Shown here: positions 49,132 through 64,000 of the stretch, piece after piece
How positions within the stretch are numbered: position 1 is the stretch's first letter
How the letters are laid out: each line of letters opens with the position of its first letter
Origin: Flavobacteriaceae bacterium
GTDB lineage: Bacteria; Bacteroidota; Bacteroidia; Flavobacteriales; Flavobacteriaceae
DNA length: 64,000 bases
Direction: 5' to 3'
Assembly: GCA_021647985.1 (NCBI GenBank)
Contig: JAKITQ010000007.1
Location: 1-64,000 of the forward strand
Position numbers and translations under genes: made by a program
Notes under the pieces: model-generated
Databases searched by the model: none
What the model saw: the letters and a program-made list of their open reading frames with translations, nothing else
What the model was told of the DNA's origin: nothing

Positions 49132-50136
49132 CTATTTTAAAGGATTTGTATCCTCAATCCAATCAAAACTTTTATTGATAAATTTAGGGGGTTTAAAACG
49201 ATACCCTACAGAAATTTTAATAAAACTTCTTACATTTTTAAGTTTTACAATAGCAATATTATCATAAGATGTAGCAACGGCACTAAATGTTATTCCACCG
49301 AAAAAAGAATTTGAATTATAACCTAAACCAATGAGTGAATTGATATTATAAATAAATTTGCCGCTCCAATTAATATCATCTTTATCAACTCCTTCTGTTG
49401 ATACTTTATTGAATCCATAGCCTAATCCTGGGGACAGACTTAAATTTGAATACCATTTTTTATTAATAACAAAAGTGTAATAATATGCTGTGTTTAAAAT
49501 AAAATTGACACTTTGAACCTTTTGGAAGAGTGAATTATTGGTCATTTTAAAATATTCATAAGTATAACTAGGTATAAAACTACCAGCACTTTTTCTTTGT
49601 ATTTCATTTTGATTTAATACCGCTTTTAATGAATAATTTTTATTGAAATTATAACTCGTAATACCTCTATAAACTCTTGTTTTTGCATGAGGTAAAATAA
49701 TATATTCAGTATTTGAAAGAAGATTAAAATTGTTAAAATCTGATACATCTTCAATATAATAACCAGCAATATTAGATACTTCAAATGTTTGTGCCCATTT
49801 TTTCGAAAAAAAGAAATCTAAATTTATTTTAAATACCGTCGTGTTTCCTTTGAGGTCAGAATCACCTTTTAAAAATTTTGGAGAAAAGCCCAAACTTAAA
49901 TTTAAAAATTTATGATTCACTGCAATCGACATCCTCAAACCTGTATTTGGTTTTACAGAATATTTAGAATTATTTACATCAATTTCAAAAGTTTCTAAAT
50001 CATTATCTAACTCAAATTTCAAATTTAGTTTGTTTTGCATGGTCTCGAAATACACAGAATTAGAAAATGAAGATTCTTCTTGTGAATACATCAATAATCT
50101 TAAGGATAAAAAAAAGATGAATATTAGTTTTTTCAT
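49132..50136 (-). CDS. Outer-membrane barrel protein (DUF4421-like)
   Basis: A 334-aa protein with signal peptide MKKLIFIFFLSLRLLMYSQ and amphipathic strands. QNKLNLKFELDNDLETFEI, KPNTGLRMSIAVNHKFLNLSLGFSPKFL and the terminal GYRFKPPKF fit DUF4421 barrels. I choose the ATG at 50136 over 50196, because the extra 20 residues precede the signal peptide and overlap the upstream gene. Function unknown. Confidence 0.75.
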   Translation of the reverse strand: MKKLIFIFFLSLRLLMYSQEESSFSNSVYFETMQNKLNLKFELDNDLETFEIDVNNSKYSVKPNTGLRMSIAVNHKFLNLSLGFSPKFLKGDSDLKGNTTVFKINLDFFFSKKWAQTFEVSNIAGYYIEDVSDFNNFNLLSNTEYIILPHAKTRVYRGITSYNFNKNYSLKAVLNQNEIQRKSAGSFIPSYTYEYFKMTNNSLFQKVQSVNFILNTAYYYTFVINKKWYSNLSLSPGLGYGFNKVSTEGVDKDDINWSGKFIYNINSLIGLGYNSNSFFGGITFSAVATSYDNIAIVKLKNVRSFIKISVGYRFKPPKFINKSFDWIEDTNPLK

Positions 50137-50153
50137 GACATTGAGGATTTCAT

Positions 50154-51251
50154 TTATTTTAACCAGCCCGTACCAACCGTAATATAAAATGCCCAATCTT
50201 CTGGCCCTCTGGCAATATCGGCTCCCATTTTAAGGCCAAGCTTTCGAGCCAGTAAATACCTAAATCCTCCCCCGGCATTCCAAACAACATCATTTTCAAT
50301 ATCTGAATTGTCAAAAGACTTAATGGCTGTACCTATACCTGTAAAACCTAATAAACCCCAACGAGGTGTAATATTGTATAATTGTTCTGTTTCCGCTAAA
50401 AAAGTTAAGTCTCCCTGATATCTCAATGCGGGAATCCCTCTTAATGTTACGAATGGCAAAGCATAAAAAGGAGTATCTCCAGTTGCTAAAATTGATTCTA
50501 ATCTAAGTGCAGGAATCCACTTATCATTTACAGGAAAATACCAATGTGTAAAGAAGTTTAATCTACCCCAATTTTTTGTGCTTCCAATAATTTCTAAGTT
50601 TTGATCATAACTCAAATGAACCCATAAACCATCTGTTGGAGAAAATGTATTATTTAAATTATCATATTCTGCGATCAATGAAACACCACTATTGGTCAAT
50701 TCTAAATCAATTGGATCAATAAGTTCATTTCCTTTAAAAATTGGTATATTTATGATAGAAAGCCGATATTTTCCTCCCAGAAAAAAATCACTGTTCCCTA
50801 TTCTAAAATTAGCCTGTTGTAAAAACATGAATGCCTGCAATTGAAACTCAAATGATTCCGCATTCGGGTCATAAAACTTTAAAGACAAATCACCATACCC
50901 TACAACGCCCCGATAGCGTACACTATCATTATTCCAAAAACCTAAATAAGCACCACCAACTAACCAGGTACCATTAGTAGTTAATCCCCCCATTAAAGCT
51001 ATGATATCTTCTTTTTGTTCACGATTCTTCTTTTTAAGAAAATAAGCACCTCCTGCTACAGCACCAAACCCTACAGCTGGTTCTGTAATAGGAATTACAA
51101 GAGGAAGAACACCATTATTTTCTAAAATAAAAGTACTGATATCAAATGCATTGTCAAGAGAATCTCTAAACATCTTTGGTTTTTCCTGAGAAAAAATATT
51201 AATAAAGCTGATGAAAAATATGATGATGAAAAAAAATAGATTCCTTTTCAT
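50154..51251 (-). CDS. BamA/TamA-like outer-membrane barrel without POTRA domains
   Basis: A 365-aa protein with signal peptide (FFFIIIFFISFINIFSQ) followed directly by an Omp85-type barrel: PVITEPAVGFGAVAGGAYF-like strands (here IPITEPAVGFGAVAGGAYF), TDGLWVHLSYDQN, ALPFVTLRGIPALRYQG with the conserved RG loop, and GGGFRYLLARKLGLKMGADIARGPEDWAFYI. No POTRA repeats are present. Such short Omp85 proteins are found next to various envelope systems; its cargo is unknown. Confidence 0.8.
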   Translation of the reverse strand: MKRNLFFFIIIFFISFINIFSQEKPKMFRDSLDNAFDISTFILENNGVLPLVIPITEPAVGFGAVAGGAYFLKKKNREQKEDIIALMGGLTTNGTWLVGGAYLGFWNNDSVRYRGVVGYGDLSLKFYDPNAESFEFQLQAFMFLQQANFRIGNSDFFLGGKYRLSIINIPIFKGNELIDPIDLELTNSGVSLIAEYDNLNNTFSPTDGLWVHLSYDQNLEIIGSTKNWGRLNFFTHWYFPVNDKWIPALRLESILATGDTPFYALPFVTLRGIPALRYQGDLTFLAETEQLYNITPRWGLLGFTGIGTAIKSFDNSDIENDVVWNAGGGFRYLLARKLGLKMGADIARGPEDWAFYITVGTGWLK

Positions 51252-51310
51252 AATATATTTTGTTAGTTAAAAATAAATATTAAAGTTTGATATTCAGATT
51301 TATATAAAAT

Positions 51311-51904
51311 CTACTCCACTTCTTCTAAAACAGCCTGGAAAGTTGGAGATACTACAACCAATCGATTTCCATCTAATGAATATTTTGTGTTTGTAACATA
51401 ATCTTTCCCACTAAAAATTAAAGCATCACCAACAATTGTATAAGTTTCTCCAAAAGTTTCGCTTTTCCCGTCTTTCCAAAGAATTAAAGTGGTAACTTTT
51501 GTGTTGGTTTGAAAGGACAGTATAATAGAAGCAAAACCTTTTGCATTCGTTTCATCATCTATTAAACTAATTACTCTCCAGGTACTTCCAGTTAAATTGT
51601 TACTATTGGGTGGTCTAAAAGCAGTTTTTTCATCAGGTGTTATTGATGATTTTTCTAATAACCTGAGTTCTTTTTCTTTTTGATACTGTCTAATTTTTTT
51701 ATCCTCAGCAGAATCGGCCATTAAACCAACACCTCCACCAACAATCGCACCAATTGCCGCACCTTCCCAACCGTCAACCAACCCTCCAACAAAAGCTCCG
51801 GTAGCCGCGCCTTGTGAAGTATTGGTTGATCCACATGAACTTAAAATGATAAATACTATTATAATAGAAATGATTTTACTTAATTTTTTTTTAGAATACT
51901 TCAT
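51311..51904 (-). CDS. Glycine-zipper lipoprotein
   Basis: A 197-aa lipoprotein: lipobox ILSSCGS (Cys24), then a glycine zipper (GAATGAFVGGLVDGWEGAAIGAIVGGGVGLMADSA) able to insert in membranes, a charged helix, and a lipocalin-like C-terminal domain (STWRVISLIDDETN; ETYTIVGDALIFSGKDY). Role unknown; glycine zippers often pack in outer-membrane lipoproteins. Same strand as the barrel genes. Confidence 0.78.
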   Translation of the reverse strand: MKYSKKKLSKIISIIIVFIILSSCGSTNTSQGAATGAFVGGLVDGWEGAAIGAIVGGGVGLMADSAEDKKIRQYQKEKELRLLEKSSITPDEKTAFRPPNSNNLTGSTWRVISLIDDETNAKGFASIILSFQTNTKVTTLILWKDGKSETFGETYTIVGDALIFSGKDYVTNTKYSLDGNRLVVVSPTFQAVLEEVE

Positions 51905-51935
51905 AAGTTTATACTTTTATGGTTTTACAATTATA

Positions 51936-52137
51936 TTACCAATCATCCATGGGTAAATCAACTGCCATAGGCATTCCAAAATCTACATCCATGCCAGGGC
52001 CGTCATCAATAATGATTAACGCTTCTATATGAACTTCCACTATAAGATGAAGTTCCTCCACAACTACTTAGAATTAAAGATAATACAGCAAATGTTATAA
52101 GGAGATATTTATTAATTATTTTCATTTTTTCTTTCAT
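51936..52137 (-). pseudogene. Small lipoprotein gene with a single-base frameshift
   Basis: Not in the ORF track. From the ATG at 52137 (or 52125) the minus strand encodes a signal with lipobox LSLILSSCGGTSSY and stops after SVNHY at 52006. The frame one base on continues DDGPGMDVDFGMPMAVDLPMDDW to a stop at 51936. Removing one T at TATTGATGAC joins the two into a roughly 66-residue lipoprotein. Either a recent frameshift mutation, a sequencing error, or two overlapping pieces by chance; the joined reading looks protein-like. Confidence 0.6.
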
Positions 52138-52162
52138 TTAAGTTATTATTAATTTGACTTTA

Positions 52163-53020
52163 TTAATTCCATTGTTGGATTAAAAATGGAGCTCCATGAG
52201 GTGTAGCAACAAGGGCTACCTTTTTTCCAGATATAACCATAGGATTAATCATAATAGATCCGCCTAATGCAACAATTTTTTTCGCAATCACTTCTGGATC
52301 TGCAACTTTGAGTACAGGAATCCAAATGGGGCTTTCTCCTTTTACAGGAATTTCTGCAATACCAGCAAAATCATACTTCTTACTTTTAAGAATAAAATAA
52401 TTATCATCGTCATCATTTGGTCTTGCCGTAACATTAAGAACATCACCGTAAAAAGAAACAGCAGCCTTTACATCTTTTGTCCATAATTCTGCCCACATCC
52501 ATTGTCCATTCTTTGCATTACTTGCTTTTGGATCACCCGAAGCACTGTGCAAAATTGAAAACACGGCTCCCTGAGCATCCTGCACAACAGCAGTTTTTCC
52601 GCGACCGGATACTTTCATCGAAGCAGATAATATTTTACCTCCTTTAGCTTCAATTTTTTTAGAAACAGCATCAACATCTTTCACAGATGCAGAAACAATC
52701 CAGTAACTATTTTTAGCTCCCTCCATAAGTTCTTTGTCTTCAATAATTCCGGAAACAGGTTTTGCTCCTGACAATGCCATTACATACGCTCCGTGGTCTT
52801 TATAAGTCCATCCCAAAAGTTTTGAAAAGAATTCTTTACTGGCTTGACCATCATTTGTTACCAAGTCAACCCAAACAATTTCACCTTCTCTCCTAATTTC
52901 GGTGTCATTTTCAGAAATAGGCATGGAAAGTTTGTTTGAAGAACAAGCAAAGATCAAAAATACCCATGCAATTATTCCTAATTTTAATAATTTGACTACA
53001 TATTTGTTCATATAATTCAT
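52163..53020 (-). CDS. Exported lipoprotein with two VOC (glyoxalase-like) domains
   Basis: A 285-aa protein with lipobox FLIFACSSN (Cys26) and two VOC domains: WVDLVTNDGQASKEFFSKLLGWTYKD (about residues 50-155) and MWAELWTKDVKAAVSFYGDVLNV (about 168-285). Metal-binding residues are not obvious. VOC proteins are generally cytosolic, so a lipoprotein version is unusual. ATG at 53020 or 53011 both possible. It belongs to the envelope block. Confidence 0.82.
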   Translation of the reverse strand: MNYMNKYVVKLLKLGIIAWVFLIFACSSNKLSMPISENDTEIRREGEIVWVDLVTNDGQASKEFFSKLLGWTYKDHGAYVMALSGAKPVSGIIEDKELMEGAKNSYWIVSASVKDVDAVSKKIEAKGGKILSASMKVSGRGKTAVVQDAQGAVFSILHSASGDPKASNAKNGQWMWAELWTKDVKAAVSFYGDVLNVTARPNDDDDNYFILKSKKYDFAGIAEIPVKGESPIWIPVLKVADPEVIAKKIVALGGSIMINPMVISGKKVALVATPHGAPFLIQQWN

Positions 53021-53070
53021 TTTTAAAGGTTAATACTTTATTTTTAAATGATTGATTTACTATTAATAAT

Positions 53071-53694
53071 TTAAAATAATTTTGCTATGCCCAATCCAAA
53101 ACTCAAACTGTTATAGGCATTTATATTGATATCAAATAATACAGAACCAAAAATTTCCCAGTTATTAGGTATGTGAAATGGAGCTTCCAAACCCAATCTC
53201 ACTACTGCAAAATCTTTATGTTTAGAAAATTCCATTCCTCCCCCACCTAAAAAAGCAAGATGTTTTAAAGGTTTGTAGGTAAGCATTATTGCAGATGAAA
53301 CCGGCCTCCCTCTATCAATAGTCTTATCCTCATTAGTCTCACTTTTAAAAACATTTTCTGACTCATGAGACCCACTGTCACTTACCACAAATTCTTCAAT
53401 AATAATATCATTATGCCAGCCCAATGCCCACTTTTCATTAAAATTATAATTGTAATTGATGGCAAATGAAGGTAAAGTAAGAAAGCTATCCCCAGAATCA
53501 TCTTTAATACCTGTCTTTAAATAAGTATGGCTAATCACAAAAGAAATAGCGTGCTTTTTAAAGTGTTCATTTTTATGTGCAACAATTTTATGATTTTTTT
53601 CAATAGAATTTTCATTTTTTAATTCCTGAGAAAAAGAGGGTTTATAAAATAAAAATAGACCTAGTAAAATGAAATAAAATAATTGTTTTTTCAT
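53071..53694 (-). CDS. Secreted or outer-membrane protein of unknown function
   Basis: A 207-aa protein with a signal peptide (LFYFILLGLFLFYKPSFSQ), a His/Lys-rich mature start (KNHKIVAHKNEHFKKHA), then alternating strands (ISFVISHTYLKTGI; FAINYNYNFNEKWALGWHNDI) that look like a small outer-membrane barrel. The C-terminus ends in a strand with GLGIAKLF. No family recognised. The His-rich start could bind metal; this is a guess from composition. Confidence 0.65.
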   Translation of the reverse strand: MKKQLFYFILLGLFLFYKPSFSQELKNENSIEKNHKIVAHKNEHFKKHAISFVISHTYLKTGIKDDSGDSFLTLPSFAINYNYNFNEKWALGWHNDIIIEEFVVSDSGSHESENVFKSETNEDKTIDRGRPVSSAIMLTYKPLKHLAFLGGGGMEFSKHKDFAVVRLGLEAPFHIPNNWEIFGSVLFDININAYNSLSFGLGIAKLF

Positions 53695-53725
53695 TTAATT
53701 TTTAATTTAATAGTTATTCAATTTT

Positions 53726-54706
53726 TTAAAACCTGTAATCAATTGATGCTAAAAATTGACTGCGATCTCCAATGCCTGCTTCCAAAACAAGGGTCATTCT
53801 CGGATGGAAGCCCCATGCACCTCCAATAAGAAAATTCCAGGGCTCTGTAACGCCTATATCCATAGAATAATTTAATTCATCACCTATAATATCTGCAACT
53901 TCAGGGTCTAATTCCCTAAGATTCACACTCCCCACGATGGTTTCATTTATATCAATATACATAGCCCCTAACCAAAGAGTTCCTGTGCCTTTTGTTTTAT
54001 AGCTATCCAAAATAACTCCTATTCTTGGTGTTAAGGTTTGGGCGGTTACGGTTTGGGTAATTACATCTAAATTAGTCCAGGTATAATTATAATCAACCGT
54101 AAAAAAGTAACTTTTAAAACCTCCTGCCAGTGTAGTACCAAAGCCAGCTGTTGTACCTTTGTAATTAATTTCATCAGTGATTTCAATAGGCTTAACAATA
54201 TCAATTTCTCCAAGATTTGGTAAATCTACTTGTATGCCGGGAATCAAAATCGTAGGTTTCATGTTTCCACTGGTTTTACCCATAACTGCGTATACATTCA
54301 AAAAGGGCAAAATCCAGATATCAGGCCTGAAGGATACATTTACATCTGTTGATACTGCATTATAAAACTTGATATCATAAGGAACATCTTCACCATCAAT
54401 AATCAACTTAAAATTACTTATCTTATTTGTTTGACGCATGACCATAAAACTCATACCAACACCAAATGGAAGTGGTAAAGAATATCCCATTTCACGTATT
54501 TTTTTACCAAAAAAGGGTAGAAAATCAGAAAGGGGCTCTACTTGATTACTTTTTCCAAGATCATCTATTTTATCTTCACAGTCTGACAACCAAATAGGCT
54601 GTTTGTCCTTTTTAGCTCCGGCGCCACTGTTTTGTGCTTTGATTGAGGAAACAAACATTATCAAAAAAACAGCTGTAAATAAAACTATTAGATTCCTTTT
54701 ATTCAT
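53726..54706 (-). CDS. Putative outer-membrane barrel protein
   Basis: A 326-aa protein with a signal peptide (IVLFTAVFLIMFVSSIKAQ) and a mature part beginning WLSDCEDKIDDLGKSNQVEPLSDFLPFFGKKIREMGYSLPLPFGVG, then barrel strands (FKSYFFTVDYNYTWTNL; TPRIGVILDSY; FHPRMTLVLEAGIGDRSQFLASIDYRF) ending in aromatic F, typical of barrels. No named family. It resembles the transport-type outer-membrane proteins often beside sulfatase and DUF1254 genes, but that is weak. Confidence 0.68.
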   Translation of the reverse strand: MNKRNLIVLFTAVFLIMFVSSIKAQNSGAGAKKDKQPIWLSDCEDKIDDLGKSNQVEPLSDFLPFFGKKIREMGYSLPLPFGVGMSFMVMRQTNKISNFKLIIDGEDVPYDIKFYNAVSTDVNVSFRPDIWILPFLNVYAVMGKTSGNMKPTILIPGIQVDLPNLGEIDIVKPIEITDEINYKGTTAGFGTTLAGGFKSYFFTVDYNYTWTNLDVITQTVTAQTLTPRIGVILDSYKTKGTGTLWLGAMYIDINETIVGSVNLRELDPEVADIIGDELNYSMDIGVTEPWNFLIGGAWGFHPRMTLVLEAGIGDRSQFLASIDYRF

Positions 54707-54786
54707 AAAATTCTTAAAACTAAATTATTGATATTATTATGCTCTTTTTTCATCTTTCTGATTTGTTTAAAAGAGTCAAATTAATT

Positions 54787-55257
54787 TTATTTTTGTTCGA
54801 TCATTGGTATCTCCATGGCAATCTTTGCTGAAACCAAGGCTTCAATTTTATTCTCTGCCTGAAAATACTTTACAGCCTTAGCTGCTGGTAAGATCTTTTT
54901 AAACTTTTTATAATAAGATTTTTCAAGTTTGGCTGATTCTGTTTTAAACTGAAGCATCAGATTCCAGATCTCATCCGCTTTTTCATCACTTAAACTCTCA
55001 AAATTATCTGAAAACTCTTTAATTGCTTTAATTCGATTATTTTGAACTATGTACATTTTTTCGTTATACTCATTATACAAGCTCCAAAAAGGTTCCGATT
55101 CAGATTCAGTTAATTCCATAGCTTCTGCAATGGCTGCTTTTTTCTCCGTTTTTAAAACCGATCGCATTACCTCAATATAATCATCCGAGGTTTGTGCATA
55201 AATTCCCGTGGATAGAACTAATAGGAAAATTAATGTAATTGCTTTTTTTGTTGTCAT
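54787..55257 (-). CDS. Periplasmic helical protein of unknown function
   Basis: A 156-aa protein with signal peptide (AITLIFLLVLSTGIYAQ) and an all-helical mature part (EPFWSLYNEYNEKMYIVQNNRIKAIKEFSDN; LEKSYYKKFKKILPAAKAVKYFQAENKI) resembling the Spy/CpxP-type chaperones in length and pattern, although the LTxxQ motifs are not visible. It is just downstream of the DUF1254 remnant. Confidence 0.65.
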   Translation of the reverse strand: MTTKKAITLIFLLVLSTGIYAQTSDDYIEVMRSVLKTEKKAAIAEAMELTESESEPFWSLYNEYNEKMYIVQNNRIKAIKEFSDNFESLSDEKADEIWNLMLQFKTESAKLEKSYYKKFKKILPAAKAVKYFQAENKIEALVSAKIAMEIPMIEQK

Positions 55258-55280
55258 TTTTTATAATTATTTTTTATGTG

Positions 55281-55603
55281 TTATTTATATGAACTATTTC
55301 TTTTTTTAAAGTCATCAGGACGTCATGTTTAATCGAAAAATGTTTTTGTTGTACTGTACAATCTCAATAAAGTAAACCATCCTTTTCCTGGGGCTGTTTT
55401 TAGCCAGTTAGATTCAGAAACTCCTTCAGGTAACTCAGATCCAAATTATCTGTTGGATACCCATTTTCAAAATTATGTGTAAAGTCAAGTGAACCTATTC
55501 TGGTTTGAAATGCATTCTTTGAATAATTTTGACTTTCATTTTTTATCACAACTAGAAATCAAGATTCTTAAATAAATAGTAATACTAGTTTATATATTTT
55601 CAT
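55281..55603 (-). pseudogene. Deletion remnant of a DUF1254/DUF1214 lipoprotein gene
   Basis: Not in the ORF track. The minus strand shows MKIYKLVLLFI (55603), a shifted lipobox-like ILISSCDKK, then FQTRIGSLDFTHNFENGYPTD (the DUF1254 start) and, in another frame, ESNWLKTAPGKGWFTLLRLY (the DUF1214 end) followed by STTKTFFD, TAA, T, TGA and RPDDFKK. The last part reads as FFDKTWRPDDFKK with Lys and Trp codons turned into stops. Only about 320 of an expected 1,400 bases remain, with several frame breaks. It fills most of the 437-base gap before the sulfatase. Confidence 0.8.
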
Positions 55604-55694
55604 AATTAAAAACAATGTATTTATTTTTTATATAAATGTGATGAGCTTATCTGTTAAGAATTTTTTACAGATAAGCCTCATACAATTAACAGTT

Positions 55695-57203
55695 TTAATT
55701 TTGTGGCTTTTTGCTCAAAGTTTTTAATACACCATCTATCCCTAAAGAACTTCCACCAACAGGAGGGAATTCTTTAAATGTTGCTAAAAATTCTCCTACA
55801 TAAGTTTGTGCAGGCACAAATAACCACATATTCTCTGCATACCACCTTGTATACATGGAAGATTCCCAAGATACCTCATATGGATCTGCTCTTAAATTAA
55901 TTACTAATGGCCAAGCCGGTGTTTTTCTAAATGCTTGGCTGATATTCCCTTCCATATAAGTAAAGTGGAGTTTCCAATTCTTATATCTAACAGCATTTAA
56001 ATTACCGCCCTGATCAAAAAAGAATATTTCATTTCTTGGAGACTCTTTAACTTCACCTTTAAAATAAGGCATCATATTATATCCATCCAAATGAACTTTG
56101 AAATTTTTTCCATTTGCCTTATAACCTTTTAATAATTTTTCTTTTACATCGGGCACACCAGCTGCAGCTAAAAGAGTTGGCATCATATCTTCATGAGAAA
56201 AAATGTCATTATACTTGGTTCCTGGCTTAATAACTCCAGGCCAACGTATAACACAAGGTGCTCTAAAGCCACCTTCCCAAGTAGTTCCTTTTTCTCCCCT
56301 AAAAGGAGTAGTTCCACCATCTGGCCACGTAAATTTTTCTGCACCATTATCTGTAGAATACATGATTATAGTATTATCAATAATACCCAATTCTTCTAAT
56401 TTTGCGAGTACTTTTCCAATAGCTTTATCGTGCTCTACCATACCATCTGGGTATAGTCCAATTCCGGTAACGCCTATACTCTCATCTTTTAGATGTGTCC
56501 AAACATGCATACGTGTAGCACTTAACCATACAAAGAAAGGTTTACCAGCTTTGTGGGCACGTTCGATAAAATCAATTGCAGCATTTGTAAATACATCATC
56601 AATAGTTTTCATTCTTTCTTTTGTTAATGGACCTGTATCTTCAATTCTACCATCTGCAAATGAATGTAATACCCCTCTTGGTCCAAATTCTTTATGAAAT
56701 GCTGGATCTTTAGGATAATAATAAGATTCTGGTTCTTCTTCTGCATTTAAGTGATATAAGTTTCCATAAAACTCATCAAAACCATGATTAGTTGGCAGCA
56801 TGTCATCTCTATCGCCTAAATGATTTTTACCAAATTGCCCTGATGTATAACCTTGATTTTTTAATAACTCAGCGATTGTTGGTTGATTGGCTTTAATTCC
56901 TTGTTCGCCACCTGGCATACCAATGGTTAATAACCCTGTTCTAAAAGGGTGTTGTCCTAAAATAAATGCTGCTCTACCTGCTGTACAAGATTGCTGTGAA
57001 TACCAATCGGTAAACATACCGCCTTCATTAGCAATTCTATCAATATTTGGAGTTTGGTACCCCATCATTCCATGGTTATAGGCACTAATATTACCCCAAC
57101 CTATATCATCTCCCCAGATGACAAGAATGTTAGGTTTTTTTTGTGCAAAAAGCCCTGTTATTAATAGGAACATCATTGCGGTTGTAAATAATGGTTTTTT
57201 CAT
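55695..57203 (-). CDS. Secreted arylsulfatase
   Basis: A 502-aa sulfatase with a signal peptide (FTTAMMFLLITGLFAQ). Metal ligands lie in NILVIWGDDIGWG; the formylglycine site is QQSCTAGRAAF (Cys73, CxAxR form), and GKNHLGDRDD and YSTDNGAEKF hold the other catalytic residues. It hydrolyses sulfate esters; the substrate (glycan, steroid-like or small molecule) is not shown. It needs a formylglycine-generating enzyme, which is not in the window. Neighbours are not polysaccharide-locus genes: no SusC/D, no glycoside hydrolases. Confidence 0.93.
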   Translation of the reverse strand: MKKPLFTTAMMFLLITGLFAQKKPNILVIWGDDIGWGNISAYNHGMMGYQTPNIDRIANEGGMFTDWYSQQSCTAGRAAFILGQHPFRTGLLTIGMPGGEQGIKANQPTIAELLKNQGYTSGQFGKNHLGDRDDMLPTNHGFDEFYGNLYHLNAEEEPESYYYPKDPAFHKEFGPRGVLHSFADGRIEDTGPLTKERMKTIDDVFTNAAIDFIERAHKAGKPFFVWLSATRMHVWTHLKDESIGVTGIGLYPDGMVEHDKAIGKVLAKLEELGIIDNTIIMYSTDNGAEKFTWPDGGTTPFRGEKGTTWEGGFRAPCVIRWPGVIKPGTKYNDIFSHEDMMPTLLAAAGVPDVKEKLLKGYKANGKNFKVHLDGYNMMPYFKGEVKESPRNEIFFFDQGGNLNAVRYKNWKLHFTYMEGNISQAFRKTPAWPLVINLRADPYEVSWESSMYTRWYAENMWLFVPAQTYVGEFLATFKEFPPVGGSSLGIDGVLKTLSKKPQN

Positions 57204-57252
57204 AATTTTAAATTTTGGTTTACATTCTCTTGTTTAATTATTTTTATTTATT

Positions 57253-57756
57253 TCACTCTTTTTCTTTAATGACTTTAACATTATACTTGAATAATCCGCT
57301 TAATTTATCCCAGAAATCTCCTCCTAATATAAAAAAGCTGGAAACAAATAGTATATCTGAGCTTATCGTCCACCAAATAGGAAGTTGTTTAAAAAATGGA
57401 AGATATAACTCTAAATAAGGTTGCGTAATTCCAATAATAATTGGTAAACTAAACATAACCAAGCCTATACGGTACCTAGTCAAGCTTACTTCATCTGAAG
57501 GTGCGAATATCTTTAAATAATTTAATGCCTTATTTTTTAAAAATTCAAATCCTTGTTTACCCATTATTGCAACTGCAATAATCATAAAGAGTTCCGGTAT
57601 ACCAAATGCAAGTAAGCCAGATAACACTCTTTTATAAGAGATAGGTAAATCAGAATCAACTACTAAAGGTATTAATAGCGGACTCATAAAGCCTACCACT
57701 AAAACAATAGTACCAATTACCAATTTTGACTTTGATGTATCTGATGATTCAAGCAT
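57253..57756 (-). CDS. Four-helix membrane protein (transporter-suffix-like)
   Basis: About 167 aa, four hydrophobic helices (LVIGTIVLVVGFMSPLLIPLV; IPELFMIIAVAIMG; IGLVMFSLPIIIGITQPYLELYL; ISSDILFVSSFFILGGDFWDKLSGLF). The last phrase resembles the transporter-suffix family, a small membrane protein group of unknown function. I choose the ATG at 57756 (MLESSDTSK) over 57789, which would overlap the upstream gene more. Cotranscribed with the preceding membrane gene. Confidence 0.7.
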   Translation of the reverse strand: MLESSDTSKSKLVIGTIVLVVGFMSPLLIPLVVDSDLPISYKRVLSGLLAFGIPELFMIIAVAIMGKQGFEFLKNKALNYLKIFAPSDEVSLTRYRIGLVMFSLPIIIGITQPYLELYLPFFKQLPIWWTISSDILFVSSFFILGGDFWDKLSGLFKYNVKVIKEKE

Positions 57757-58420
57757 TACTTTTTTTATTTTCTGTTTGATTTGATCCAATCTTTTTTAAG
57801 ATATATCCTAAAGGAATAATTATTAAAAAGGAGAGTGTCCAAGCAGCAGGGCTTATCGATGCAAAAGGCAAGGAGAATAAAGCTGCAATTGGCTCTGGTA
57901 AAATTTGATATAATATAGTTCTTTCTTCATCTTCATTGATTTGATCAGAAGTCAGATTATTCTTTCGGGCATATATCCAGTTATAGACTCCAATAAATCC
58001 GGCAAGAGCCAAAAACACACTTTCCATCTGTAAAGCCAGAGTCATTCCTTCAAATTCCAAATCAAATCGAACAAAATAAAGGTATAACATCAAGCAAAAC
58101 ATTTGAATAACAGCCAAGGTTGCATGCATTGGGGAACTTCTTACCAGATTTCCCAACTGTTTATTGAACTGGATCCAATAAGTAATGATCATAATTAGCC
58201 CAACAACAATTAGAACAAGTTGCATGATATGTTCACTAAATATTTGAGAAAGAGAATGATATTCTAATTCAGGATCATCAGGGCGTGGTAATATCAAAAA
58301 GGCTTGAAAAATCATTAAAGCGTAAAGCACATTAATAATTACCTTGAGGCTATTTAATATACCAACTCCTCGCTCTAATTCAGCTTGAGTATTATCCTTT
58401 ATTTTAAAGAATTTTATCAT
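57749..58420 (-). CDS. Multipass membrane protein (TMEM175-like architecture)
   Basis: A 223-aa protein with about six helices. The middle (IITYWIQFNKQLGNLVRSSPMHATLAVIQMFCLMLYLYFVRFDLEFEGMTLALQM) is reminiscent of the TMEM175/DUF1211 channels, but the FSD motif of their first helix is not present, so the family is uncertain. It sits between the barrel protein and the transporter-suffix-like protein; overlapping reading frames suggest coupled translation. Confidence 0.6.
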   Translation of the reverse strand: MIKFFKIKDNTQAELERGVGILNSLKVIINVLYALMIFQAFLILPRPDDPELEYHSLSQIFSEHIMQLVLIVVGLIMIITYWIQFNKQLGNLVRSSPMHATLAVIQMFCLMLYLYFVRFDLEFEGMTLALQMESVFLALAGFIGVYNWIYARKNNLTSDQINEDEERTILYQILPEPIAALFSLPFASISPAAWTLSFLIIIPLGYILKKIGSNQTENKKSNA

Positions 58421-58461
58421 CTTATTTATTTCTATTTTGTTGCGTTTATTACTTTAAATTA

Positions 58462-59331
58462 TTACTTTTTCCCAACCGGCATTGTATATGAAAGGTTAAT
58501 TCTAAATGAATTTTTCACTGCCGGACCTTGCCAATCTTCATAAATAGCACTGGTTCTATACTCCGCATAGGCATTCCAGGATGCTTTTTCCAAAACCCAC
58601 ACTTTACCGAATCGTGCGCCAAGTGGTAAATAAAACCCTTTGGTATTCCAATCATATAATGCTACAATATCGGCAGTTTGAACATACATTCCGGTGGTGC
58701 CAAACCGATAAGCTATGAAAGGTGCAATACCTAATGGGTTTATATTTGATGTACTTCCATCTTCGGATGCAATCAGAGGAATTGGTTGCAACGCATTTGG
58801 ATCAACACTCCGCCATGATTGTGTAAAAAGCAATCCATAAAACCATTGTCCACTATTGTTAACTATTGCAGCACTAAAACCATAACCCCATTCATCTTTT
58901 GAAACGCCTTCACTACCAGGTGTCGTAATCATAGGGCCAATACCTGCTCTACCATTACCCCAATTGGTAGCATTCGGTATGATCAAAGCAAAAATTTCTG
59001 TATTACCAAAACCTGACTTTTTTTTCTGTAGATCTTCGTAATGACGAATAGTTATTCGAGGTAGGATGGTCATCGATTTTAATGGAACCGGTGCTACAAC
59101 ACGAAGTTGTAAATAATTATCAAGTCCAAGAGTACGATCGGTTATACCGTCACTCAATTTCCCAGTGTGATAATCAGGCATAGTTTGATAGGCTAACTGG
59201 AAACTCCATTGTGTTGCGGTTGCATCCATTGCTTGTGATGCACGGTCTTGTTCTGCGTTATTTTCCTCCTCTTCTTGTGCAAAAACCATAAAGGAAATTA
59301 GCATAAAAAATAGTAATGATATTTTTTTCAT
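58462..59331 (-). CDS. Outer-membrane barrel (porin-like) protein
   Basis: A 289-aa protein with signal peptide (ISLLFFMLISFMVFAQ), an acidic start (EEEENNAEQ) and barrel strands: QWSFQLAYQTMPDY, MTILPRITIRHYE, WFYGLLFTQSWRS, NPLGIAPFIAYRFGTTGMYVQT and the final SFRINLSYTMPVGKK. I choose the ATG at 59331; the track start at 59394 adds an Asn-rich stretch translated from low-complexity DNA. It is similar in type to the barrels that accompany DUF1254 and sulfatase genes elsewhere. Confidence 0.72.
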   Translation of the reverse strand: MKKISLLFFMLISFMVFAQEEEENNAEQDRASQAMDATATQWSFQLAYQTMPDYHTGKLSDGITDRTLGLDNYLQLRVVAPVPLKSMTILPRITIRHYEDLQKKKSGFGNTEIFALIIPNATNWGNGRAGIGPMITTPGSEGVSKDEWGYGFSAAIVNNSGQWFYGLLFTQSWRSVDPNALQPIPLIASEDGSTSNINPLGIAPFIAYRFGTTGMYVQTADIVALYDWNTKGFYLPLGARFGKVWVLEKASWNAYAEYRTSAIYEDWQGPAVKNSFRINLSYTMPVGKK

Positions 59332-59406
59332 TTTCTTAAATTTAATTATATTATTATTTGTGTTATTATTCTTTTTATTATTATAGTTTAACATATTATA
59401 TATAAT

Positions 59407-60396
59407 TTACCAAAAACTCAAAACGCGTTCAAAACACCACATTGTTGCAATGATACCAATGCTGTATGCCGGAACAAGTTTTACCCAATTCTTAGGCTTT
59501 ATTTTTATTTTATTCACTAAAAAGATGATGACAAGTATTACCATCACAAATACGAGTTGACCAAGCTCCACTCCAATATTGAAAAATGCCAAAGCAAACG
59601 GAATATCTGTTTGAGGTAATCCGAGTTCGGTTAAAGCCCCTGCAAATCCAAATCCATGCAAAAGGCCAAAAATAAATGCCACAACCCATGGGTATTTCGC
59701 AGTTAAACCAACATGGCCTTTGATAAAGTGAACAAGTTCAACGGCCAGAAATACAATACTTAATGCAATAACTGCCTCAATAGAAGCAGAAGGCATATAA
59801 ACAAAACCTAAAGCTGCCAAGCTTAATGTTATGCTATGGGCAATGGTAAAAGCAGTTATCGTTTTTAAAATGCGCCAACCTCCAAACGTGATTAGTACCA
59901 GTGCTAAAACAAACAGCAGATGATCAAAACCAAATAATATATGCTCTATACCCAGTTTGAGATAGGTTTTAGAAATATTCCAGACAGATGGTGTATCAGG
60001 AATTACATAAATGGGATTTTTGGGCTTTACCAAACCGCTAAATTTTACTCCGTTAAGCAATTTTATGGTCACTAGTACGTCCATTATTGTATTCTGAAGA
60101 CCATCAAAAGTAATCTCTCCTCCATGAATGTTATCATTAAGTTCATAGTTCCATTCTTGTCGAAGTGCATTGGAAATAAGGCTTGCATTATTACTCGTCA
60201 TCTTCCAATTTTCAGGCAATTCAAGATAAATCTTTGGAACGGTCATCCCTGTTGCGGGTATCTTCCAGACTACATGAAATGAATTTTCTCTTGTTTGTTC
60301 AATTTGTAAATAAGCAGGGCGCACCTCATGTGCATTGGCCGATAAGCCAATAGCAAATAAAACAATTGAATAAACTAAGTTTCTAAATAAATTCAT
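59407..60396 (-). CDS. HupE/UreJ family membrane protein with extracytoplasmic domain
   Basis: A 329-aa protein. A signal peptide (VLFAIGLSANAHEVRPAYLQI) leads to an extracytoplasmic beta domain to about residue 145, then six helices with HupE motifs: LGIEHILFGFDHLLFVLALVL, TAFTIAHSITLSLAALG, GLLHGFGFAGAL and FFNIGVELGQLVFV. HupE/UreJ proteins are Ni2+ permeases near hydrogenases or ureases; no such enzyme is here, so the metal or substrate may be different. It is between the porin-like gene and DUF3604. Confidence 0.9.
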   Translation of the reverse strand: MNLFRNLVYSIVLFAIGLSANAHEVRPAYLQIEQTRENSFHVVWKIPATGMTVPKIYLELPENWKMTSNNASLISNALRQEWNYELNDNIHGGEITFDGLQNTIMDVLVTIKLLNGVKFSGLVKPKNPIYVIPDTPSVWNISKTYLKLGIEHILFGFDHLLFVLALVLITFGGWRILKTITAFTIAHSITLSLAALGFVYMPSASIEAVIALSIVFLAVELVHFIKGHVGLTAKYPWVVAFIFGLLHGFGFAGALTELGLPQTDIPFALAFFNIGVELGQLVFVMVILVIIFLVNKIKIKPKNWVKLVPAYSIGIIATMWCFERVLSFW

Positions 60397-60468
60397 CTAA
60401 ACTTCAAAAAATGACAGTATTAATAAATTATAATTACCATCATGTTAAATTTTTAATCTTTCGTGCCT

Positions 60469-60526
60469 ATATCTCTCGACTTTATGGACAGGCACTAATT
60501 AGCCATAAAGTCTGAGTCTGAGATAT
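60469..60526. repeat. Long imperfect hairpin between HupE and DUF3604 genes
   Basis: GACTTTATGG and CCATAAAGTC (60478-60487, 60503-60512) form a ten-pair stem, and ATATCTC/GAGATAT (60469-60475, 60520-60526) extend it past an internal loop. There is no T-run right after it, so it looks like a processing or attenuation structure, not a simple terminator, in a 144-base spacer. Confidence 0.6.
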
Positions 60527-60540
60527 CATTCTTAATCTGA

Positions 60541-62472
60541 CTATTTAGGATTATACCATATTGGGGACGTATAGGCCCTCTCCTGAGTTGTCATTTCTAC
60601 TTCTTTAGGTAGTGTTAATCCATAACGATACGCATCATAAGCGGTCCATCTTGGTGTTGGTATTTCTATAACACGTGTATAATAAAATGCCCTAAGCTTA
60701 GGATCAAAATCAGGGTCTTTCCAAACACCGATAAGTTCTGGGTCACCAATCGTATTGGTCCATGTTGCATTGGCTACATCTACTGTATTACCAACAGCAG
60801 GAACTTTTCCATCTTTCCCTTTTTTTCGTGTATCCATATCAGACCAGATAACATCATATACTTTTTCATGAGTATTTCCTTTTTTGTCAAGCCAGCCTTT
60901 TATTATTTGTATTCTGTCTAAGTTTCCACTTAATGGATCTTTTAATGCAGCTATTAAAAATGTTGGAGTTTTTCCTTTTGGAGCTTTTTCCAGATCACCA
61001 CCCATTGGAACACCTTTGGCATAGCCAATATCAGCAGGAAGTCGGTAATTGGCATCTTTCGCAATAAAATCCCATCCTCCAAAAAATCGAACCATCATTC
61101 TAGGGCCTGTTGTGGCATAAACTTCCTTTCGCATCATGGCGTCAAATAGTGCCCCACGAGTATTATCTGTTGCCCAAACGCCCGCATAACCAGAAGCAGA
61201 CATTTTAAATCCATCATATTGCCTACCGGAAAATTTTGCCATAGGATGATTCCATCGGTCTTTGTTAGGTTCAGTACCTGGATGTTTCCCCAAATAGTTC
61301 TCCTCTTCTACAGCTGAAATTCCTGTATGTGTATCAGTAGACCCTACCAGTCCAAATTTGTACGGATTGGTTCCCAGTTGTGATTCCAATTTCAGACCAT
61401 TCTTCAATGCCTCGCGTGTATATTCATACTGAAGCATATTATCTGTCTTCACCACCGTTAAATTTAGGTTGCCAATTGCAAGAGTTTCATAATCAGCAAA
61501 TTCATCAGTAGGTGACAGGTAAGCATGAGTTTCTCCATCTCCTTTTATTTGTGTTGTTTCATATAACGGTTCCCAGCGAGCACGGTTTTTAACATAGTCA
61601 CTGGTAAGTGGTTTTCCTGTTGCAGGATTTGTTTCTACCGGAAACATGATTCCATTACTCATATTACCATTATGTGCCAAAGCTAGTACTTGCCCTCCTG
61701 TTTTTGCTTCATATTCACCCATCCACTTCCATAAGTCTTCAGGGTTAAAACTTTTTTCAGTTGTATATGGCAACATCATAGCTGCTTTGTCTTCATTATC
61801 TCTATATAAAACATTACGGTGTAAATTGTTTCCATTTTCAGTGGATGTCCATTCATAGCCGATGATGGTAGTAAAAGTTCCCGGATCATTATACTCATTT
61901 GTAATATCTAGATAACCCTCCCAGATTGTCTTAGCAAATGCCGGATCCATCACAACTTTAGGCATTTTTCCTTGTGAAAACCTATCAATTACATCCATTG
62001 TTGCATCAAAAGCGTCATCTCCTCCGGCATTGAATTGCTTATTCCATTCCCTTACTTTTGGATCTTTCATCAGGTTAGGATTACCTTTAATAATTTCATC
62101 CATAGCTCCCATTCCATCAGAATGGTCGGCAACTACTAACCAATCCAGTGGGCGAGAAAGTTTGAATCGAAGACCGGTAGATGTGGTAACTTCTTCGCCC
62201 CTGGCAAATTTAAAAGCAACATCGGGACCAACTGTAGCACCAAAGCCACGAGCATCTAATGAATTCATTGTATGTACATGTGTATCTCCCCAATAAACAT
62301 TAGTAGGAAAATTACGACCGGCATAGGGTGAATAGTTAGGTTTTTTTACGGCGCTGCGCATGTCGTCTTCGGTAGGACGATCACCAGCCATATTTCCTTT
62401 TTTTTGTGCTAAAACCGAACCGGAAAAAACAACAGATAAACTGAATAAAATAATAGTTACTAATTTTCTCAT
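60541..62472 (-). CDS. DUF3604 domain protein (PHP-like, exported)
   Basis: A 643-aa protein with a signal peptide (VTIILFSLSVVFSGSVLAQ). The DUF3604 domain fills the protein. Metal-site signatures of PHP-like phosphoesterases are visible: WGDTHVHTMN (about residues 61-70), LVVADHSDGMGAMDE, LALAHNGNMSNG and LVGSTDTHTGI. DUF3604 has no proven activity that I know of; the motifs suggest a metal-dependent hydrolase in the periplasm. It follows the parvulin gene by 18 bases. Full length, no truncation. Confidence 0.92.
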   Translation of the reverse strand: MRKLVTIILFSLSVVFSGSVLAQKKGNMAGDRPTEDDMRSAVKKPNYSPYAGRNFPTNVYWGDTHVHTMNSLDARGFGATVGPDVAFKFARGEEVTTSTGLRFKLSRPLDWLVVADHSDGMGAMDEIIKGNPNLMKDPKVREWNKQFNAGGDDAFDATMDVIDRFSQGKMPKVVMDPAFAKTIWEGYLDITNEYNDPGTFTTIIGYEWTSTENGNNLHRNVLYRDNEDKAAMMLPYTTEKSFNPEDLWKWMGEYEAKTGGQVLALAHNGNMSNGIMFPVETNPATGKPLTSDYVKNRARWEPLYETTQIKGDGETHAYLSPTDEFADYETLAIGNLNLTVVKTDNMLQYEYTREALKNGLKLESQLGTNPYKFGLVGSTDTHTGISAVEEENYLGKHPGTEPNKDRWNHPMAKFSGRQYDGFKMSASGYAGVWATDNTRGALFDAMMRKEVYATTGPRMMVRFFGGWDFIAKDANYRLPADIGYAKGVPMGGDLEKAPKGKTPTFLIAALKDPLSGNLDRIQIIKGWLDKKGNTHEKVYDVIWSDMDTRKKGKDGKVPAVGNTVDVANATWTNTIGDPELIGVWKDPDFDPKLRAFYYTRVIEIPTPRWTAYDAYRYGLTLPKEVEMTTQERAYTSPIWYNPK

Positions 62473-62490
62473 AATAATAATTTACAATTT

Positions 62491-63372
62491 TTAATATTTT
62501 TCTTTTTTGTAATGATACTTTTTAAAGACCTCATTATTGATCTCAATAGTGTATTGCTCTCTAAGCCTTGCCATAAATTTTTTGTCCAATTTTTCCTTTC
62601 TTATGGCAATCATTTCTCCTTTAATTTTTTCAGACACATCTTTAAACTCAGGAATGTAACCTGGTTTTCTATTCAAAACATAAATGAGATGCAATCCATA
62701 ATTAGAACTTACAGGACCAACCCATTTATTTAATGGTGAATTAAGCAGCTGTTCAACTATTTCTGTTTCACCAAATTGTGAGCTCAATCTATCCGATTGC
62801 AGGTCTGGATAATTTGACCGGAGCATGGTTTGATCTCCATATTTGGTTATGTCTAAGTCTGAAATATCCATCCCGTTTAACTTGTATTTTAAATTTGATG
62901 CAAGTGATTCAGATGTTTCCGGCTTCCTTTTATCTACATTAAAAAATATTTGTAAAAAACTTATTTCCCCGGATTCCTTTAGTTCATTCTTATGCGATTC
63001 ATAATATGTTTTAATCTCATTGCTTGTTGGTTCTTTTACAGTAAGCATATCTCCGGCTACAAATTCCATTTTCTGGGCAAGTCTTCGGCGTATGATAATA
63101 TCATCTTTATCCAATCCCATTGCTAATGCTTCCTGCATCAATATTTCTTCACGAATATGATCATCAATCAATCCTTGCAGTTCTGTTTCTGTAGGTAGCC
63201 TTCCCAATTGACGCTGCCAATGAGTGTACATTAAATCAATTTGTCCCTTGGTAATTTGTATTGTTTTATTATTAGCTGTATTGTCGTTCCCGAATAATTC
63301 GAAAATAAAGAACAGCATAATGCCTCCAATAATAAAATGAAACAAAGGTTCTTTAATAAGTTTTTTTATCAT
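62491..63372 (-). CDS. Membrane-anchored parvulin-type peptidyl-prolyl isomerase
   Basis: A 293-aa PpiC/SurA-like protein. One N-terminal helix (PLFHFIIGGIMLFFIFELF) anchors it, followed by a SurA-like helical region (ITKGQIDLMYTHWQRQLGRLPTETELQGLIDDHIREEILMQEALAMGLDKDD) and a parvulin core around LNSPLNKWVGPVSSNYGLHLIYVLNRKPG. It faces the periplasm and may fold the neighbouring barrel, DUF3604 or HupE proteins. Confidence 0.87.
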   Translation of the reverse strand: MIKKLIKEPLFHFIIGGIMLFFIFELFGNDNTANNKTIQITKGQIDLMYTHWQRQLGRLPTETELQGLIDDHIREEILMQEALAMGLDKDDIIIRRRLAQKMEFVAGDMLTVKEPTSNEIKTYYESHKNELKESGEISFLQIFFNVDKRKPETSESLASNLKYKLNGMDISDLDITKYGDQTMLRSNYPDLQSDRLSSQFGETEIVEQLLNSPLNKWVGPVSSNYGLHLIYVLNRKPGYIPEFKDVSEKIKGEMIAIRKEKLDKKFMARLREQYTIEINNEVFKKYHYKKEKY

Positions 63373-63495
63373 AAATCAAATATTTAATTGATAAAAATTA
63401 TATTTTAAATCTACCCTTACTATTAGTACAAGTAAAACTTGTATTATAATTCTTTTCATAATGGTTAAATCAAGTGTTAATTTATTGATTTATTA

Positions 63496-64000
63496 TTATT
63501 TCTGTTTGTTCCAGCGGTATTGATAGCTTAAAGAAATTGCATCAAAATCAGGTCCTCTTTTAAATCGAAAACCAGAAATATAAGCGAATTTTACCGTATG
63601 CTTTTTAGCAACAGGCAAAGCATATATCAAACCTAATCTTGATGTTGAAATCTTTGTATCTCTAGGTACATCATTTAATTCTGTTTTTCCACCAATACCA
63701 TATCCAACATTCAATGCTACCCACATTTTTTTTGGCAACTCCCTTATAAAGTGAACTTTAACTGTGTATAATGGTTTTTGCGACAATTGATTTCCATTTA
63801 AAAAATTTGTGTTTTTTGTAAAAATCCACATCCCAACATAAGATTCTATGATCCATTTATTAAAATTTCTTGCAAACCCCCATTGTGTTTTAAAAGCCCA
63901 GCGATTGGAACCAATATTTATAAGTTCCTCCGGATTATAATCACCTGTTGGAGCAATAATTTGCACACTTATTCCTGAAACACTTTCTGGTTTATAATTT
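63496..64000 (-). CDS. Outer-membrane transporter-like barrel (phenol-degradation MetA family), cut by window edge
   Basis: The ORF track begins with a GTG at 63966, but the frame is open to base 64000 (NYKPESVSGISVQ), so the gene is partial. IIAPTGDYNPEELINIGSNRWAFKTQWGFAR and the final FDAISLSYQYRWNKQK match the putative MetA-pathway phenol degradation family of outer-membrane barrels. The start is outside the window. It is the most upstream gene of the visible envelope module. Confidence 0.8.
   Translation of the reverse strand, partial: NYKPESVSGISVQIIAPTGDYNPEELINIGSNRWAFKTQWGFARNFNKWIIESYVGMWIFTKNTNFLNGNQLSQKPLYTVKVHFIRELPKKMWVALNVGYGIGGKTELNDVPRDTKISTSRLGLIYALPVAKKHTVKFAYISGFRFKRGPDFDAISLSYQYRWNKQK

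Follow-up and report, generated by a model that had tools for sequence, protein, structure and literature searches.

A Membrane Parvulin, a DUF3604 Protein and a HupE/UreJ_2 Permease as a Candidate Three-Gene Unit in a Flavobacteriaceae Genome

Results and Discussion

Gene Layout at the Locus

The stretch of DNA analyzed here (the window) covers positions 1-64000 on a contig of 76 kb (JAKITQ010000007.1) from a draft Flavobacteriaceae genome that is 86.6% complete. Its end holds a run of genes that includes a DUF3604 protein, a membrane parvulin, and a HupE/UreJ_2 permease, hereafter the triad. A sequence-only reading of the window had described a one-strand run with short gaps, and this description holds. 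All genes lie on the minus strand and, in order of transcription, encode barrel 1, the parvulin, DUF3604, HupE/UreJ_2, barrel 2, two membrane proteins (TM1 and TM2), a sulfatase, and a DUF1254 remnant. The gaps range from 12 to 144 bp (barrel 1 to parvulin, 123 bp; parvulin to DUF3604, 18 bp; DUF3604 to HupE, 144 bp; HupE to barrel 2, 12 bp; barrel 2 to TM1, 41 bp; TM2 to sulfatase, 49 bp), and TM1 and TM2 overlap. Pfam confirms the gene identities that had been proposed, namely the Phenol_MetA_deg barrel, the Rotamase_2 parvulin, DUF3604, HupE_UreJ_2, and Sulfatase. The window order is parvulin-DUF3604-HupE, whereas DUF3604-parvulin-HupE is usual elsewhere. Scanning the run for promoters and terminators by simple means gave results near chance level, which say little about where the operon ends. 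The core genes are the following (aa, amino acids).

62491..63372, minus strand: parvulin, membrane-anchored, module type (family A7), 293 aa, core partner; PF13145, 1.3e-9
60541..62472, minus strand: DUF3604 protein, 643 aa, a predicted exported PHP-type metallohydrolase with C-terminal beta-sandwich; PF12228, 1.5e-239
59407..60396, minus strand: HupE/UreJ_2 permease with a periplasmic N-terminal domain from mature His23, 329 aa, core partner; PF13795, 4.4e-47

Properties of the Core Proteins

The match of the DUF3604 protein to PF12228 is full-length (796.8 bits against a cut-off of 20.4, positions 2-591 of 591). Residues H65, H67, D116, H117, H218, H267, D380, and H382 are kept in an alignment of 57 diverse DUF3604 members, and the structural model (predicted local distance difference test, pLDDT, 91) displays a PHP-like domain with C-terminal beta strands. 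The motifs that mark PHP membership (HxH, H, and DxH) are present together with the fold, for which the best PDB match of the model, to the PHP domain in RNase AM (7ug9; TM score 0.49 on the target, E 8.3e-4), is modest. A sequence search for solved relatives returned none of use, and the CehA/McbA metallohydrolase model is matched weakly by 30 of the 57 members, with 8.4e-6 as the best value. The protein is predicted from sequence and model to be a PHP-type metallohydrolase, which would be exported and enzymatically active. PHP enzymes of known structure carry a trinuclear metal center, and zinc is the metal of one exported PHP phosphodiesterase (PMC5460133). DUF3604 resembles the CehA/McbA metallohydrolases and the exported phosphodiesterase Sb-PDE (PMC5460133) in its PHP-type metal site and predicted export, but differs from them in forming a separate Pfam family, in its own C-terminal sandwich, and in its fixed helper genes. 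Our search of the literature on DUF3604 returned one incidental mention; the family is widespread and its function is not known.

The permease matches PF13795 with 160 bits against a cut-off of 24.5. It has a signal-peptide-like start followed by a mature N-terminal histidine (His23), found in 37 of 38 members, the cleavage site being assigned by eye rather than by a predictor. The N-terminal domain is a beta-sandwich of about 110-120 residues (strands 28-131) that precedes a helical body, and its fold matches ZrgA (8ezw/8f1b). An H-x5-D-H motif (H152/D158/H159) as well as H187, H247, and E277 do not vary among the 35-38 typical members. The two features that define the Ang-1 type, a mature N-terminal histidine after the signal peptide and an immunoglobulin-like beta-sandwich, are both present. 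Related two-domain HupE proteins bind copper and nickel, and the crystallized Ang-1 domain, carried on a HupE/UreJ-2 permease, likewise finds its closest reported fold match in ZrgA (PMC12537917). The window protein thus shares with the Ang-1/Ang-2 "anglerase" HupE/UreJ-2 proteins described there the signal peptide, the mature N-terminal histidine, the periplasmic beta-sandwich, the permease, and the match to ZrgA. It differs in the size of its N-terminal domain (~120 aa against ~175 aa) and in lacking a useful sequence match among the solved chains compared, a set not shown to include Ang-1 (PDB 9GCE). The neighborhoods in the available text of that study name no DUF3604, parvulin, or DUF1254 (PMC12537917). 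The window protein probably joins a periplasmic domain that binds metal to a metal-permease body. The permease family is common to the HupE/UreJ proteins of hydrogenase and urease operons, but the window type has an added periplasmic domain and is tied to a parvulin and a presumed exported enzyme.

Divergent HupE-like proteins of 675-738 aa occur near parvulin and DUF3604 at four loci (L048:12370-14586, L051:13306-15333, L052:3458-5614, and L059:8742-10871; here and below, L, C, and G numbers are our handles for loci, contigs, and genomes). They lack the N-terminal histidine and the H-x5-DH motif and have an extra C-terminal region, and metal transport is therefore not a role common to all HupE. 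These forms may have a docking role, or may have lost transport where the metal comes from another source. A further unusual arrangement is found in Rhizobium sp. Pop5 (L153:5920-8161), where three consecutive HupE/UreJ family genes come after DUF3604 and parvulin, and a DUF1254 gene lies ~3 kb on.

The parvulin (39.4 bits for Rotamase_2 against a cut-off of 27) has a single N-terminal membrane helix. The last active-site histidine is kept in 21 of 21 members; the first is glutamine in the window protein and in 14 of the 21, so that the two-histidine active site of a catalytic parvulin is incomplete in the window. This substitution suggests that the protein may serve as a holdase rather than as an isomerase. 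No useful solved relative was returned by sequence search. Parvulins of the SurA/PpiD/PrsA type have in common with it the parvulin domain, the membrane anchor, and the periplasmic side. The module parvulin is distinguished from them by the prevalent loss of the first catalytic histidine to glutamine and by being confined, in our samples, to DUF3604 genomes; parvulins of the general kind reach much lower scores against the profile of its family.

Co-occurrence of the Triad and Co-inheritance of the Parvulin-HupE Pair

Neighborhoods were compared in 80 named loci from many phyla, retrieved with DUF3604. The sequence-only reading had named such gene groups for marine Gammaproteobacteria. The triad is indeed found there, but its range is wider, spanning Bacteroidota, Alpha-, Beta-, and Gammaproteobacteria, Thermodesulfobacteriota, Planctomycetota, Verrucomicrobiota, Acidobacteriota, Nitrospirota, and others. 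The three genes also stand side by side in annotated plasmid loci of Sinorhizobium, Rhizobium, Rhodobacter, Ruegeria, Roseibium, Ensifer, and Pseudoalteromonas. Where at least 4 kb is visible on either side (n = 46), parvulin is present in 34 loci and HupE in 33, mostly as close neighbors of each other. In the present genome, contig C41 carries two DUF3604 genes followed by parvulin and HupE of matching types; the strand run with these core genes contains no sulfatase and no barrel.

Linkage was counted in 40 genomes picked for DUF3604 and long contigs, parvulin not being a criterion. Of 61 strong HupE_UreJ_2 genes, 35 are found no more than 6 kb from DUF3604, 34 of them on the same strand, against 0.56 expected. 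The module parvulin is present, with E values of 3e-68 or better, in 39 of the 40 genomes, from many phyla; only G262, a genome of 2.4 Mb, lacks it. The expectation that the families adjoin more often than chance is thereby borne out far beyond chance. We then sampled by taxonomy alone, using 101 genomes of the order of a Ruegeria (G252) and requiring full-length DUF3604, a full-length HupE profile match at E <1e-100, and a parvulin at E <1e-60. DUF3604, module-type parvulin, and module-type HupE occur in the identical 14 genomes, and the other 87 lack all three; independent sets would agree in this way, for any two of them, with a chance of about 2e-17, a figure that is too small because the kinship of the 14 genomes is uncorrected. 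Among 248 Bacteroidota, full DUF3604 is present in three genomes with three family codes, and these are also the only ones to have the module parvulin and, next to it, the ~330-aa HupE. The parvulin scores E <1e-95 in these three, while the next best value among the 248 is 4e-14.

The linkage counts and the co-occurrence in the genome samples rule out a chance neighborhood. Simple hitchhiking of linked genes is unlikely, since the parvulin-HupE pair accompanies DUF3604 even when unlinked: in four of the 14 genomes (G318, G328, G353, and G358) the two lie on separate contigs or >25 kb apart, and G256, G266, and G278 are unlinked as well.

Tree distances provide a further level of detail. Over 25 loci, parvulin and HupE distances correlate (Spearman rho 0.69, p 5e-4), while those of DUF3604 correlate weakly with either helper (0.16 and 0.29). 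We infer that the pair is one inherited unit and DUF3604 an exchanged partner. The window illustrates such a mix: its DUF3604 falls among sequences from Gemmatimonadota and Sulfurovum at 72% identity, these being metagenome bins whose labels may be wrong, and its HupE groups with Bacteroidota (58% identity to L013).

The pair is also found in other company. It stands beside two DUF1254 genes in Microvirga, and a second pair in Ruegeria (L134:6901-10217, G252) lies directly downstream of an arginase-family enzyme with a signal-peptide-like start, which is possibly a different client of that pair. A further arginase-family gene follows ~2 kb beyond (L134:12260-13672).

Variable Companions of the Triad

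The remaining genes of the run, together with one located beyond the window, are as follows.

63496..64000, minus strand: barrel 1 (3' part), predicted outer-membrane; Phenol_MetA_deg PF13557, 5.7e-12; full 303 aa at L005:6997-7908
L005:7918-8787, outside the window: extra predicted barrel, 289 aa, no Pfam match, located upstream of barrel 1 with a gap of 9 bp
58462..59394, minus strand: barrel 2, predicted outer-membrane, 310 aa, variable companion, no Pfam match
57749..58420, minus strand: TM1 membrane protein, 223 aa, variable companion, no Pfam match
57253..57789, minus strand: TM2 membrane protein, 178 aa, no Pfam match; weak sub-cut-off match to a "transporter suffix domain"
55695..57203, minus strand: exported sulfatase, 502 aa, variable companion; PF00884, 2.4e-51, CTAGR motif
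55305..55445, minus strand: DUF1254 remnant (DUF1214 end) with stop codons; tblastn E 3.5e-7 (window-only search), 65% over 31 aa to the DUF1254 protein of L085

Barrel 1 is truncated by the window end and has 44% identity to a barrel in L016, a locus that also has DUF3604 and a sulfatase. Since the extra barrel lies only 9 bp upstream of it, the run continues past 64000, and this 289-aa barrel probably belongs to it. Relatives of barrel 2 in other phyla adjoin a sulfatase, DUF3604, or parvulin-HupE, and relatives of TM1 stand next to barrel 2 in the Gemmatimonadota loci L043 and L050; TM2 has no relatives among the fetched loci. Identities to L050 are 73% for the sulfatase, 45% for barrel 2, and 32% for TM1.

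The sulfatase does contain the CxAxR motif reported for it, in the form C-T-A-G-R, and its best solved relative is 7aj0. The DUF1254 remnant proposed at the end of the run is real, with stops in its frame, and the L085 protein that it matches flanks DUF3604, as do DUF1254 neighbors in other phyla. A polysaccharide utilization locus was considered and rejected: in agreement with the initial description of the sulfatase surroundings, no SusC/SusD or glycoside hydrolase was recognized among the open reading frames from 49132 to 64000 and in L005.

Of the neighbor relations originally proposed, that among DUF3604, HupE, and parvulin is very strong, while DUF1254 and the sulfatase are enriched only weakly. 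DUF1254 genes lie within 6 kb of DUF3604 in 6 of 60 cases against 0.5 expected, and at least 14 of 399 sulfatases occur near DUF3604 against 4.2 expected, about threefold, the sulfatase count being a lower bound read by eye. Both are enriched but dispensable. The most complete counterpart is a Nitrospirota locus (L018, genome G284), which within ~18 kb holds a sulfatase, three DUF1254 and three DUF3604 genes, parvulin, and HupE, close to the full set of the window. The eight genes thus represent one among several arrangements in which the triad stays constant. The gene set of the single eight-gene envelope module first proposed is real in nearly all points; the module is better read as a fixed triad with a variable block that in this genome resembles a Gemmatimonadota cluster.

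Several observations concern the wider surroundings. In a Robiginitalea genome (G250:C22:541919-551072, the genome of L033), DUF1254 alternates with ~800-aa sulfatase genes, a DUF1254-sulfatase linkage that is independent of DUF3604. At the start of contig C10 (L007:495-3897), a 3' DUF3604 fragment near the contig end is followed by a transposase-like open reading frame and by DUF6515 and DUF2092 genes; DUF2092-like proteins adjoin DUF3604 also in L019 and L060. Similar-looking exported barrel-like proteins (window 49132-50196 and L006:17646-18641) lie one near each complete DUF3604 locus of the genome.

Functional Interpretation

The co-occurrence, adjacency, and pair co-inheritance described above can be accommodated in a reading to which we would give an even chance: the locus centers on three genes that function together as a unit, in which parvulin and HupE form a dedicated membrane pair for the maturation or metal supply of DUF3604. 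DUF3604, as an exported PHP-type metallohydrolase, would be the chief client. The parvulin would be anchored in the inner membrane, its chaperone domain on the periplasmic side, folding or holding the freshly exported enzyme, and HupE/UreJ_2 would supply or handle the metal at the same membrane site, in a direction that is itself conjectural. The pair may serve further exported hydrolases, as suggested by its presence with DUF1254 in Microvirga and with the arginase-family enzyme in Ruegeria. In this genome, the operon-like run with at least two barrels, two membrane proteins, and a sulfatase may tie the unit to the breakdown of a substrate entering the periplasm.

A number of observations weigh against this assignment. 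The likeness of DUF3604 to known PHP enzymes is weak in both sequence and fold, and isomerase activity may be absent where the first parvulin histidine is glutamine (14/21). HupE forms devoid of metal motifs (L048, L051, L052, and L059) remain near parvulin and DUF3604. In two Robiginitalea genomes, DUF3604 and the parvulin are accompanied only by a short HupE located elsewhere, and some parvulin-HupE pairs have no evident client nearby (L127, L133, and L152). Kinship among the 14 genomes also lowers the force of their agreement.

The same genes could instead serve acquisition. DUF3604 would cleave an extracytoplasmic substrate (a phospho- or carbamate ester or an ester of another kind, possibly serving as a metal ligand), HupE would import the freed metal or small product, and the parvulin would merely fold envelope parts. 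The HupE of Rhizobium imports nickel, and it has been proposed that Ang-type domains pass metal into the permease (PMC12537917); the enrichment of sulfatases and DUF1254 near DUF3604 is also in line with such a role. We nevertheless regard it as unlikely: the strictest partner of DUF3604 is the parvulin and not the transporter, the neighborhood maps contain no constant uptake receptor, and the divergent HupE forms persist without their metal motifs. That persistence, along with the co-inheritance of the pair, would fit a HupE that is no transporter and acts as a membrane dock for parvulin and enzyme, yet the invariance of transport-type residues in the 35-38 typical members makes this improbable.

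Import and hydrolysis of a sulfated small molecule by all eight genes, the function first suggested for the run, appears more improbable still. The sulfatase, barrel 2, and TM1 do co-occur with DUF3604 in L050 and other loci, and the threefold sulfatase enrichment is consistent with it. As a core function it is unsupported, because neither a sulfatase nor a barrel adjoins most triads: within 4.5 kb, such a sulfatase is found in 9 and such a barrel in 5 of the 46 fully visible loci, and on contig C41 the triad is complete without either.

Conclusions

For the triad, whose parvulin and HupE we read as a dedicated maturation or metal-supply pair for DUF3604, the literature that we searched (DUF3604, PF12228, PF13795, and parvulin with UreJ) returned no description, and only PMC12537917 was relevant. 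In a broader and doubtful version of this reading, the pair would be a general machine that loads metal in the periplasm. Anchored in the inner membrane, it would be shared by, or exchanged among, exported hydrolases of unrelated families (DUF3604, DUF1254, and arginase-like), as a maturation system of a kind not described before. Because DUF3604 co-occurs almost perfectly with one specific parvulin and one specific HupE, it becomes a testable system. If the reading is true, certain exported metalloenzymes would own a folding and metal-supply pair in the membrane.

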